Assembly (NCBI GenBank): GCA_011523425.1
Contig: WTGU01000062.1
Location: 1 to 58,136 of the forward strand
Reading direction: 5' to 3'
Length of the DNA stretch: 58,136 bases
Source of the DNA: Alphaproteobacteria bacterium
GTDB lineage: Bacteria > Pseudomonadota > Alphaproteobacteria > UBA828
Shown here: in pieces, positions 46,878 through 50,840 of the stretch
How positions within the stretch are numbered: the stretch's first letter is position 1
Layout of the letters: each line of letters begins with the position of its first letter
The notes under the pieces: model-generated
Told to the model about the DNA's origin: nothing
Databases searched by the model: none
What the model saw: the letters and a program-made list of their open reading frames with translations, nothing else
Program-made: the position numbers and the translations under genes

Positions 46878-47207
46878 ATGCTCAACAAGACGTGGGCGCT
46901 GCGGATCGCGATTCTCGCCCTTCCGCTGGCGGTTGCTGCCGGGTGCCAGTCGGCCGCAGAGCAGGAACAGGCAGCGGCTGCCATAGCCGGCGCCGAGGCG
47001 ATAGCGAACCAAGCCCTGCAGACCGCCAATCAGGCCCTGGTGGCCGTGGACGAGCTGCGGGCCGCAGTGGACGAGGCCAACGCCAACGCCCAGGCGGCGG
47101 CAGCGGCGGCGGGCGACGCGGCAGGCGCAGCCGAGGCAGCGGCCGAGGCGTCGCACATGGCTGCCGACAAGGCGGATCGCATCTTCCAGAAGATGAACAG
47201 CAAATAG
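46878..47207 (+). CDS. Braun-type (Lpp-like) alanine-zipper lipoprotein
   Basis: A 109-aa lipoprotein. Residues 1-22 form a signal peptide ending in the lipobox AVAAGC, with lipidated Cys23. The mature part is a long helix rich in Ala, Gln, Asp and Glu with regular Ala spacing, like the trimeric alanine-zipper of Lpp/OprI. The protein ends in MNSK, so the last residue is a lysine, as in E. coli Lpp where that lysine is joined to peptidoglycan. CAGGAGGAGG precedes the ATG. The convergent neighbour is an L,D-transpeptidase. Confidence 0.85.
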   Translation: MLNKTWALRIAILALPLAVAAGCQSAAEQEQAAAAIAGAEAIANQALQTANQALVAVDELRAAVDEANANAQAAAAAAGDAAGAAEAAAEASHMAADKADRIFQKMNSK

Positions 47208-47246
47208 GCCGGGTGGGCGGCCGTCGCGGGCTGCCCGATGGGAGAG

Positions 47247-48236
47247 CTATCCGGAGGCTGAGGTGCGGTCCTCGGTAACCCTGACGGGGACGCCGGACCG
47301 CTCCTCCAGCGCCTTGCGGATGAGGCTCCAGTTCAGCCTGTCCTGGGAGTCGCCGGCCCGAGACATGATCCGGTAGAACACGTCGGCGAGCGAGTCGGCG
47401 CCGGCGCTCTCGATGCGGCCGGTGGCGGACAGCTCGTCGGCCTGGGCCGCTTCGGGATGGGCCTCGACGAAGAGCTCGCCGTCGGCCCAGCCCACCTTGA
47501 CCACCTGGTCGATGACGTGGACCGGCGTGCCGATGGGGACCATCGCGTAGAGGCGCGCGATATCCTCCGGGTAGAGGCGGATGCACCCGTGGCTCACCCG
47601 CCGACCGATTCCCCACGGCCTGTTGGTGCCGTGGATCAGGTAGGTGGGCCAGGCGAAGTAGAGCGCGTGGCTGCCGAGCGGATTGTCGGGGCCGGGCGGC
47701 ACCACCTTGGGCAGATGGGGCTTCTCCTCGCGGATCGACTCCGGCGGATACCAGGTCGGCCTTTCCTTCTTGCGGACGATCTCGGTGGTGCCGAGCGGCG
47801 TCGTCCATCCCTCCCGGCCGACGCCGAGCGGGAAGGTCACCGGCTCCGTGCCGGGCGCGCCGAAAAAGTAGAGACGATGCTCGGCCAGGTTGACGACCAG
47901 GCCCTCTCGCGCGGTATCGGGCAGGATGTGCGCGGTCGGCAGGGTGACGGTCGTGCTTTCGCCGGGCACCCACGGGTCGACGCCGGGATTGGCCGCGATC
48001 ATTTCGACATAGCCGAGACCGTTGGCGCGGGCGAGGTCGAGCAGGGTGTCCTCGTAAGCGGTCACGACCTGGCGGAACTCGCCGATCATGTCGCTGACCG
48101 GGGCTTCGACGGCAGCGGCACTCGCCACGGCCCCCTCGGAAGGAGGGTCGCTGGCGGCGGCACCGTCCGCCAGCGCGAACGCCAGCAGCGCCACCATCAC
48201 GGCTGAGACGAGGGGCGCGTTCCGTCGCCGTCGCAT
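47247..48236 (-). CDS. L,D-transpeptidase (YkuD) with LysM-like domain
   Basis: A 329-aa periplasmic enzyme. Residues 1-29 are a signal peptide (cleavage near AAAS-D). Residues about 60-103 look like a LysM peptidoglycan-binding module (DTLLDLARANGLGYVEMIAANPG in sense, split by loops). The YkuD domain follows, with His202 in IHGTN and the catalytic SHGCIR (Cys218). Such enzymes form 3-3 crosslinks or link lipoproteins to meso-diaminopimelate. The ATG at 48236 lies ten bases after AGGAG. It is 12 bases downstream of sseA on the same strand. Confidence 0.9.
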   Translation of the reverse strand: MRRRRNAPLVSAVMVALLAFALADGAAASDPPSEGAVASAAAVEAPVSDMIGEFRQVVTAYEDTLLDLARANGLGYVEMIAANPGVDPWVPGESTTVTLPTAHILPDTAREGLVVNLAEHRLYFFGAPGTEPVTFPLGVGREGWTTPLGTTEIVRKKERPTWYPPESIREEKPHLPKVVPPGPDNPLGSHALYFAWPTYLIHGTNRPWGIGRRVSHGCIRLYPEDIARLYAMVPIGTPVHVIDQVVKVGWADGELFVEAHPEAAQADELSATGRIESAGADSLADVFYRIMSRAGDSQDRLNWSLIRKALEERSGVPVRVTEDRTSASG

Positions 48237-48248
48237 CGTCAAGCGCTC

Positions 48249-49115
48249 CTAGGCTGGCTCCCCGCTCTCGACCGGCGCGTCCGCGCGGCTGCCCCAATCG
48301 GTCCATGAGCCGTCGTAGACGGCAACCTGCTCGGCACCGATGGCGGCGAGCGCGAGCGCCAGCGTACACGCGGTGATGCCCGACCCGCACGTGGCGATGA
48401 CCGGGCTGGCGGGGTCGACGCCCGCGTCGGCGAACGCGCGGCGGATCGCCGCCGCCTCGCCCAGCGCGGCGGCGTCATCGTCGAGCACCGCGTCGAAGGG
48501 CACGTTGCGACTGCCGGGAATGTGGCCGCGCGGAAGGTCGGGCCTTGGCCCCGGATCCTCGCCGCTGAAGCGCGCGGCGGCACGCGCGTCCACGATTTGC
48601 GCGTCGCCAGACTCGAGGGTGGCGCGGACCTGCTCGAACGAGCGGACCAGCGTTCCGTCGTAGGTCGCCGCGAACGCTCCCGCCGCGATCGCGGGATCCC
48701 CTCTCTCCACGGGCCGGCCCTCCGCCCGCCAGCGCGGCAGGCCGCCCGCGAGCACCGAGACGCGCCCGTGCCCGAAGACGCGGAACATCCACCAGACGCG
48801 CGCGGCGCTGTAGAGCCCCACCGTGTCGTAGACGACGACGTGCGAGGCGTTGCCGATCCCGAGCGCCGAGACGGCGGCGGCGAAATCCGCCGCCCGGGGC
48901 AGCATGTGCGGCAGCGAGGAGTCGGGATCGCAGATGCCGTCGATATCGAAGAAGGCGGCGCCCGGAATGTGCGCCTCGCGGAACTCTGCGGCCGGGTCGC
49001 GCGCCAGCGGCGGCAGGTGCCAGGAGCCGTCGAGGATCCGCACGTCGCTGCCGGCGGCGGCATTGGCGGCGAGCCAGGCGGTGCTTACGACGAGCGGTGC
49101 GTCGCCTGCGCTCAC
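48249..49115 (-). CDS. sseA: 3-mercaptopyruvate sulfurtransferase
   Basis: A two-rhodanese-domain sulfurtransferase, 288 aa. The active-site loop CGSGITA (Cys243) is the mercaptopyruvate type rather than the thiosulfate type CRxG. HIPGAAFFDID and HIPGSRNVPFD mark the two domains. It transfers sulfur from 3-mercaptopyruvate, a cysteine breakdown product. It overlaps alaX by four bases and lies two genes downstream of cysteine synthase. Confidence 0.93.
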   Translation of the reverse strand: MSAGDAPLVVSTAWLAANAAAGSDVRILDGSWHLPPLARDPAAEFREAHIPGAAFFDIDGICDPDSSLPHMLPRAADFAAAVSALGIGNASHVVVYDTVGLYSAARVWWMFRVFGHGRVSVLAGGLPRWRAEGRPVERGDPAIAAGAFAATYDGTLVRSFEQVRATLESGDAQIVDARAAARFSGEDPGPRPDLPRGHIPGSRNVPFDAVLDDDAAALGEAAAIRRAFADAGVDPASPVIATCGSGITACTLALALAAIGAEQVAVYDGSWTDWGSRADAPVESGEPA

Positions 49116-49843
49116 GATGCGTCCCCGAAGACGAGAACGACGCGCCGGTTGTGGCGGCCCTTGCTCTCGATCTTGCGCACGACGACCGGCCCGATCTCGC
49201 CCGTTCGCGCCACATGGGTGCCGCCGCAGGGCTGGAGGTCGACGCCGTCCACGTCGATCAGCCTCACCCGGCCCTGGCCGGCGGGCGGCTTCACTCGCAT
49301 GGTCTTCACCAGCTCCGGCTGCGCGGCGAGCGATTCGTCGCTGATCCAGCGTGCCGCGACCGGCAGGTCTCGTGCGATGAGCGCGTTGAGCGCCTCCTCG
49401 ACGGCCGCCTTCTCCAGCCTGGTGTCGAGATCGAAGTCGAGGCGCCCCTTCTCCGCCGTGAGCTGCCCGCCGGTCACCGGCGCGTCGATCACGGCGCTCA
49501 GCAGATGCAGGCAGGTATGCATGCGCATGTGGCGGTGGCGACGCTCCCAGTCGAGCTCGGCGATCACGCTGCTCCCCGGGGCGGGCACGGCTGCATCGGG
49601 ATCGACGAGGTGCAGGATGTCGCCGGCGGCCTCGCCCTTGCGCGTGCCGTGCACCGCGAGCTCGCTGCCGTCGGCGGCGCGCAGGACCCCGCTGTCGCCC
49701 GGCTGGCCGCCGCCCTCGGGATAGAAGACCGTGCGGTCCAGCCGCACCGCGCCGGGGGCCGGCGTGCCGACCTGCGCCTCGCAGGTGCGCGCGTAGGGGT
49801 CTGTGCGAAAGAGCGGCTCAGTCGGCGGCGTCACGGGCGTCAT
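49112..49843 (-). CDS. alaX: AlaX-type alanyl-tRNA editing protein
   Basis: A free-standing editing domain that hydrolyses mischarged Ser- or Gly-tRNA(Ala); 243 aa. It starts with a beta-barrel domain (FYPEGGGQPGDSG). The zinc-site residues lie in MHTCLHLLSA, and the second motif is CGGTHVARTGEIG, both as in the AlaRS editing domain. No synthetase domain is present. It overlaps cysteine synthase by 26 bases and sseA by four, so all three are co-transcribed. Confidence 0.93.
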   Translation of the reverse strand: MTPVTPPTEPLFRTDPYARTCEAQVGTPAPGAVRLDRTVFYPEGGGQPGDSGVLRAADGSELAVHGTRKGEAAGDILHLVDPDAAVPAPGSSVIAELDWERRHRHMRMHTCLHLLSAVIDAPVTGGQLTAEKGRLDFDLDTRLEKAAVEEALNALIARDLPVAARWISDESLAAQPELVKTMRVKPPAGQGRVRLIDVDGVDLQPCGGTHVARTGEIGPVVVRKIESKGRHNRRVVLVFGDAS

Positions 49844-50840
49844 CGAGCCAAGGCGGCACCGGCAGGCCGCGCTCGCGCAGGAATGCGGGGTTGAAGAGCT
49901 TGCTGAAGTAGCGGGTTCCGTAGTCGCAGAGCACGGTGACGATGGTGTGGCCCGGGCCCATCTCCCTGGCCAGTCGGATCGCGCCGGCCACGTTGATTCC
50001 GGTCGAGCCGCCCATGATGTGGCCCTCGTTCTGCGCCAGATCGAAGATCGCCGGCAGCGCCTCCTCGTCCGGAATCTGGAAGGGCACGTCGATCGGCGCG
50101 TCTTCCAGATTGGCGGTGATCCGGCCCTGGCCGATCCCCTCGGTGATCGAGCTGCCCTCCGCCTTCAGCTCGCCGTGAGCGTAGTGGTTGTAGAGCGCAG
50201 CCCCCATGGGATCGGCCAGGCCGATCGTCACCGAGGGCTTGCGCTCCTTGAGCGCCATGCCGACGCCGGCGAGAGTGCCGCCGGTGCCGACCGCGCAGAT
50301 GAAGCCGTCGATCCCGCCGCCGGTCTGCTCCCATATCTCGGGCCCGGTCGTCTCCACATGGCCCTGGCGGTTGGCCACATTGTCGAACTGGTTGGCCCAG
50401 ATCGCGCCGTTCGGCTCCGTCTCGGCGAGCTCGTCGGCGAGCCGGCCCGAGTACTTCACGTAGTTGTTCGGGTCGCGGTAGGGAACCGCCGGCACCTCGA
50501 TGAGCCTGGCGCCGCAGAGCCGCAGCATGTCCTTCTTTTCCTGGCTCTGGGTCTCCGGAATCACGATCACCGAGCGGTAGCCGAGGGCGTTGCCGACCAG
50601 CGCGAGCCCGATGCCGGTGTTGCCGGCGGTGCCTTCGACGATGGTGCCGCCGGGCCTGAGGACGCCGCGCTTCTCGGCGTCGCGCACGATGAAGAGCGCC
50701 GCCCGGTCCTTCACCGAGCCGCCGGGATTCAGGAACTCGCACTTGCCGAGGATCTCGCAGCCGGTCGCCTCGGAGGGGCCGTGCAGACGGATCAGCGGCG
50801 TCTTGCCGATCAGCTCGACGAAACTCGGTTCGGCTGTCAT
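49818..50840 (-). CDS. cysK: Cysteine synthase (O-acetylserine sulfhydrylase family)
   Basis: A fold-type II PLP enzyme that makes cysteine from O-acetylserine and sulfide; 340 aa. The PLP lysine is in NPGGSVKDR, the substrate loop in EGTAGNTGIGLA and the phosphate loop in GTGGTLAGVG. The length is somewhat more than typical CysK, and TAGNTG replaces the common TSGNTG, so a related cysteine-synthase subgroup is possible. It is the first gene of the cysK-alaX-sseA group. Confidence 0.88.
   Translation of the reverse strand: MTAEPSFVELIGKTPLIRLHGPSEATGCEILGKCEFLNPGGSVKDRAALFIVRDAEKRGVLRPGGTIVEGTAGNTGIGLALVGNALGYRSVIVIPETQSQEKKDMLRLCGARLIEVPAVPYRDPNNYVKYSGRLADELAETEPNGAIWANQFDNVANRQGHVETTGPEIWEQTGGGIDGFICAVGTGGTLAGVGMALKERKPSVTIGLADPMGAALYNHYAHGELKAEGSSITEGIGQGRITANLEDAPIDVPFQIPDEEALPAIFDLAQNEGHIMGGSTGINVAGAIRLAREMGPGHTIVTVLCDYGTRYFSKLFNPAFLRERGLPVPPWLDDARDAAD

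Follow-up and report, generated by a model that had tools for sequence, protein, structure and literature searches.

In E. coli, the Braun lipoprotein Lpp is an alanine-rich coiled coil of 58 mature residues with a C-terminal Lys, of the PF04728 type and produced in a LolB-bearing host; its gene is convergent with ldtE, 63 nt away. LdtE is a cross-linker, and the genes for the Lpp-anchoring L,D-transpeptidases (LDTs) LdtA, LdtB and LdtC lie elsewhere in the genome. For OprI of Pseudomonas aeruginosa, LdtPae2 (PA14_27180) is the sole anchoring enzyme in strain PA14 (PMC10434034). The recorded distribution of Lpp is narrow: in a 2021 survey, PF04728 recovered Lpp-like proteins from no group other than a subset of Gammaproteobacteria (PMC8263019); a 2024 review gives Lpp a very narrow range, E. 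coli and its LolB-producing cousins, and raises the possibility that LolB let Lpp emerge (PMC11784454); and a 2023 paper says in one passage that Lpp homologues are not known from Rhodobacter sphaeroides or other Alphaproteobacteria and in another that most Alphaproteobacteria lack them (PMC10470522). The same paper measured an orphan Tri-Lys-Arg muropeptide in R. sphaeroides and reports that DalA (RSP_1200) adjoins the genes of the predicted LDTs RSP_1199 and RSP_1201 (PMC10470522).

Here we analyse a 58,136-nt stretch of alphaproteobacterial DNA (the window; contig WTGU01000062.1), in which a gene for an Lpp/OprI-family lipoprotein and an LDT gene are likewise convergent, their stop codons being 39 nt apart. 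The features of the pair are as follows.

46878..47207, + strand: Lpp/OprI-family alanine-zipper lipoprotein gene, 109 aa (PF11839 match; single copy in the genome)
46878..46943, + strand: type II lipoprotein signal peptide MLNKTWALRIAILALPLAVAAG (lipobox AAG/C; Cys23 invariant in 21 diverse homologues)
46944..47162, + strand: predicted lipidated Cys23 and alanine-zipper helix (heptad register, indel sizes)
47163..47204, + strand: conserved C-terminal tail ADKADRIFQKMNSK, whose last residue is the predicted attachment Lys (Arg101 and Lys109 invariant)
47247..48236, − strand: YkuD L,D-transpeptidase of the LdtA/B/C/E (ErfK/YbiS/YcfS/YnhG) type, with an export signal (YkuD domain, structure and sequence matches)
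47577..47594, − strand: catalytic motif SHGCIR, with the nucleophilic Cys and the transpeptidase-type Arg (both invariant in alignment A1)

The lipoprotein gene runs from an ATG at 46878, just downstream of AGGAGG, a strong ribosome-binding site, to a stop codon at 47205-47207, with the terminal Lys codon at 47202-47204. Its product consists of MLNKTWALRIAILALPLAVAAG, followed after the cleavage site by CQSAAEQEQ and ending in AADKADRIFQKMNSK; the mature protein has 87 residues and a C-terminal Lys. It scores 30.3 bits against PF11839 (Alanine_zipper, major outer membrane lipoprotein; cut-off 23.1), a family matched by all 21 diverse homologues. The NCBIfam Lpp/OprI model NF040598, to whose end residues 8-109 align, gave 26.7 bits, below its cut-off of 43, and PF04728, enterobacterial Lpp proper, matched neither the window lipoprotein at E ≤ 10 nor any of 21 homologues at E ≤ 0.01. 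A lipoprotein profile run against solved chains matched best to 9tz4, a chain of OprI-type sequence, and aligned to its last residue. Across the 21 diverse homologues (alignment A2), the lipid Cys23, Arg101 (position −9) and Lys109 were the only invariant residues, the middle of the protein being poorly conserved; the window protein has SK at its end where most homologues have RK. In its best heptad register, 91% of the a/d positions of the window lipoprotein are hydrophobic (mostly Ala) as compared to 45% elsewhere, and an indel of seven residues is the commonest between homologues (by pairwise counts, which are not mutually independent), both as expected of a coiled coil. In E. coli, Asp at position +2 keeps lipoproteins in the inner membrane; the residue at +2 after the lipid Cys of the window lipoprotein is Gln, not Asp. 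When genome contigs were scanned with the lipoprotein as a single sequence, no homologue was returned, probably because Ala-rich sequence was filtered out, whereas profile searches did find homologues.

The LDT reading frame extends from an ATG at 48236, with AGGAG upstream (TTG at 48242 is a possible alternative start), to a stop at 47247, and its export signal was judged by eye. It scores 96.6 bits against YkuD (cut-off 23.4), and its top NCBIfam models are LdtE (183.7 bits) and related enterobacterial LDTs, each under its equivalog cut-off. Among solved chains, 9tyw is nearest by sequence (E = 5e-75; 4lzh, E = 3e-51), while the AlphaFold model (pLDDT 91.9) found the Klebsiella LDT 4lzh as its best Foldseek match (TM 0.78/0.86). 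The Arg of SxGCxR marks true transpeptidases, whereas Lpp detachases (DpaA) carry Ala or Asn there (PMC8263019, PMC10434034). The window LDT carries Arg, rather than the Ala or Asn of a DpaA-type detachase, two residues after the catalytic Cys, and this Arg is kept in nearly all LDTs adjoining an Lpp gene. One further YkuD gene is present in the genome (G000:C91:36908-37348), with the motif TAGCVA, in which Ala stands at the position of the transpeptidase Arg; its reading frame shows no obvious export signal, and the product is perhaps an L,D-carboxypeptidase or DpaA-like enzyme. The window LDT is the only exported SxGCxR-type LDT found in this genome, which is 99% complete. The first-pass annotation had proposed an alanine-zipper lipoprotein ending in Lys, convergent with a gene for the enzyme class that bonds Lpp to peptidoglycan, and both parts are borne out: the former by the PF11839 score and the position of the Lys codon, the latter by the YkuD domain, the SHGCIR motif and homology to the group that holds the Lpp-anchoring LDTs of E. 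coli and the OprI-linked LDTs of Pseudomonas.

The rest of the neighbourhood is housekeeping, with a DUF2244 membrane protein gene upstream. The LDT gene is the last of an apparent operon (47247-50840, − strand) with genes for a rhodanese, an alanyl-tRNA-synthetase-related editing-type protein and a PALP-family (cysteine-synthase-like) enzyme, and starts 12 nt after the rhodanese gene. At the locus, no sigma-70-type promoter was found, the sole terminator-like site was within chance, and folding of the spacer between the two genes was not unusual (z −1.4).

We then consider how widely the pair is kept. In the window's order, the LDT profile matched 19 of 22 genomes, and in all 19 a Lys-ended lipoprotein adjoins the LDT; PF11839 alone recovered the lipoprotein in 16 of the 22. 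The three genomes lacking the LDT had no detected lipoprotein either, which is weak evidence because the genes adjoin and the genomes are bins. Across the class, 385 evenly drawn Alphaproteobacteria were searched with the lipoprotein profile from alignment A2 (strong matches, E < 1e-9), and 29 genomes, from 15 family groups, carry the lipoprotein. It is Lys-ended in 28 of these 29 and has an LDT within 1.5 kb in 28. One exception, G115, shows no LDT within about 4 kb of the lipoprotein and was retained in the counts. The arrangement is convergent in some families, with the lipoprotein upstream on the same strand in others, so the linkage has survived rearrangement. Among the 80 nearest named LDT relatives in genome_contigs (including Rhodospirillales bacterium RHO3_bin_80 and Rhodospirillaceae bacterium RS434), an Lpp-type gene lies alongside in 50, all Lys-ended, a proportion favoured by a query alignment built from Lpp-linked LDTs. 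Tistrella mobilis and Nitrospirillum are among the carriers of the pair, and the two Rhodospirillales names support an alphaproteobacterial origin of the window.

Terminal Lys is present in 109 of 112 unique mature lipoproteins, Arg at −9 in 100 and Phe at −7 in 78, part of this set having been gathered with a profile from Lys-ended seeds, while the PF11839-based order and class matches were not chosen for their ends; as a control, a terminal Lys is rare among the neighbouring LDT proteins (4 of 136). The three homologues with other ends include an alphaproteobacterial one adjoining an LDT (L216 in G198, 2311-2655, + strand; retained in the counts), whose end, RKPAR, either breaks the tail rule or extends it. 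The other two, with E and S ends, are apparently L193 and L195, both seemingly unrelated coiled-coil matches. As judged from these genomes, conservation of the Lys end and of the neighbourhood over 15 alphaproteobacterial families is more than chance.

A quick, unrooted tree of 119 LDTs placed the alphaproteobacterial enzymes mostly together and apart from the gammaproteobacterial ones, with a few misfits, mostly metagenome bins. Recent import from Gammaproteobacteria was considered as an origin of the pair and is disfavoured, since the two sets of enzymes cluster largely apart in this tree. Separately, in two bins labelled Deltaproteobacteria (Myxococcota), L075 and L079, the lipoprotein gene lies upstream of an LDT gene whose product clusters with the alphaproteobacterial enzymes; these may be mislabelled bins or may reflect transfer.

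It had been suggested that the locus may represent an alphaproteobacterial Lpp system, and that homologues without a terminal Lys would speak against it. That search was run, and the proposal was not refuted: Lys is the last residue in all 19 proteins from the order and in 109 of the 112 unique homologues. The conserved end, the linkage, the SxGCxR motif and the status of this LDT as the sole exported one of its kind found in the genome point the same way. The accompanying contrast, in which Braun-type attachment was best known from Gammaproteobacteria and several Alphaproteobacteria tether barrels instead, holds for Brucella and Agrobacterium; the Lpp-type pair, however, is no single oddity, since it recurs in many other alphaproteobacterial lineages.

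What may be a reduced form of this arrangement occurs in a Micavibrio-like branch, where at ten loci an Lpp-type LDT is convergent with a gene for a short lipoprotein of 58-70 aa before processing.

L057:4115-4297, − strand: short Lys-ended lipoprotein; further such loci are L058, L061, L064, L074, L076, L085, L090, L091 and L096

All ten proteins end in Lys, as ...VF...QTK or similar (...[VM]F...K); besides this Lys, the positions invariant among them are the lipid Cys, a Phe and an Arg-Thr pair. None of the ten has an alanine zipper or coiled coil, or matches a Pfam family above cut-off. From gene position and sequence, on which this reading rests, the short lipoproteins are possible minimal Braun-type tethers, reduced to lipid and tag.

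Taken together, this analysis suggests that the window pair is an alphaproteobacterial Braun-type OM tether, a reading to which we assign a probability of roughly 85%, and that it very probably constitutes a functional Braun lipoprotein system. We infer the following course. The lipoprotein would be lipidated on Cys23 and delivered to the OM; no LolB is detectable in the host, so delivery would have to follow a LolB-free route. The alanine zipper would trimerise into a rod of up to about 130 Å, given 87 residues, as against about 87 Å for 58. The neighbouring LDT, as the putative attaching enzyme, would act on a tetrapeptide stem, releasing D-Ala4 and passing the tripeptide as an acyl group to the terminal Lys side chain, in the manner known from E. 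coli and Pseudomonas. This Lys would then be bonded to the meso-DAP alpha-carboxyl, and the OM would thereby be fixed to peptidoglycan. In favour of this reading are the family matches, the near-invariant Lys end and Arg at −9 despite a variable middle, the conserved linkage and the SxGCxR motif; against it are the NF040598 score under its cut-off, the SK rather than RK end, and the fact that the LDT adjacent to lpp in E. coli is a cross-linker.

This last point is the basis of the alternative that deserves most attention, in which the Lpp/OprI homology is genuine but the neighbouring LDT, like LdtE, works mainly as a 3-3 cross-linker, leaving the lipoprotein mostly free or attached only secondarily. 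Both the convergence of lpp with ldtE in E. coli and the rank of LdtE as best NCBIfam match of the window LDT are in keeping with it. However, E. coli has LdtA, LdtB and LdtC for anchoring, whereas the search of the window genome turned up no second exported LDT with SxGCxR, so that anchoring would have no enzyme. The OprI-anchoring enzyme of Pseudomonas, moreover, belongs to the same type as the window LDT, and a terminal Lys that went unused would need no conservation. We regard a neighbour that mainly cross-links as unlikely. The same conservation bears on a different proposal, that the LDT serves N-terminally attached beta-barrels in the style of Brucella and Agrobacterium, the lipoprotein being a non-covalent structural protein. 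Alphaproteobacteria with barrel tethers have been described (PMC8263019, PMC11527210), and the window genome encodes one clear OMP_b-brl barrel together with OmpA-domain proteins; the nearest barrel in the genome has a mature N-terminus near ...AQA/EDGNWY. Such tethering is, however, often found in species with many LDT homologues (review, PMC12729407), whereas this genome has one exported LDT, and across 15 families the LDT is linked to a lipoprotein gene whose C-terminal Lys is conserved, making the barrel proposal very improbable.

Finally, the lipoprotein itself might be a low-complexity artefact, an Ala-rich reading frame in a GC-rich genome that mimics Lpp; the composition of protein and genome, the poorly conserved middle and the empty single-sequence scan would all fit. 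Against this, the lipid Cys, Arg at −9, Phe at −7 and the Lys end are kept across distant genomes together with the linkage, the gene has a strong ribosome-binding site, and the profile follows the OprI chain 9tz4 to its last residue; we find an artefact scarcely credible.

With a Braun-type tether as the preferred reading, the mechanism and the family are both known, and it is the distribution that looks under-recorded in the literature surveyed. The presence of the pair in at least 15 alphaproteobacterial families contradicts the view that Lpp is confined to Gammaproteobacteria, and a PF04728 search misses the window lipoprotein because it belongs to PF11839. LolB scored above cut-off in none of the 385 alphaproteobacterial genomes, and carriers without detectable LolB challenge the suggestion that LolB allowed Lpp to emerge. 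We tentatively posit, at somewhat less than even odds, that lpp-ldt is an ancestral proteobacterial tether predating LolB, which may have been kept vertically in many Alphaproteobacteria beside or instead of barrel tethers; in one branch the coiled coil would have been replaced by a short lipoprotein with only the lipid Cys and a Lys-ended tag, in which case the enzyme would recognise the tag and not the rod. Our results also suggest Lpp-type lipoproteins as a class of candidates for the source of the R. sphaeroides Tri-Lys-Arg muropeptide. A host with a single exported LDT opens anchoring to study free of redundancy, and a well-known OM anchor looks broader than recorded.

Compared with described systems, the window pair shares with the barrel tethers of Brucella and Agrobacterium (e.g. 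Omp25 with Ldt4) an alphaproteobacterial setting and an LDT of the kind that covalently links an OM protein to meso-DAP; there, the barrel N-terminus is attached and LDT paralogues are many, whereas here the predicted attachment site is the C-terminal Lys of a lipoprotein. With E. coli Lpp it has in common an alanine-rich coiled coil ending in Lys and an LDT homologous to LdtA, LdtB, LdtC and LdtE, and it differs in its PF11839-type lipoprotein. By sequence, the closest solved structures to the pair are 9tz4 for the lipoprotein and, for the LDT, 9tyw, which we infer to be LdtPae2; at 550 bits, 9tyw closely resembles the LDT whose gene adjoins OprI-type genes in Pseudomonas-like genomes. The window lipoprotein is longer than OprI, at 87 mature residues, and its host is without detected LolB; peptidoglycan attachment has been demonstrated for OprI and is predicted for the window lipoprotein. 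In OprI-bearing, Pseudomonas-like genomes the LDT gene is convergent with the neighbouring OprI-type gene, as in the window, and the P. aeruginosa OprI tail ANERALRMLEKASRK follows the same logic as that of the window lipoprotein.
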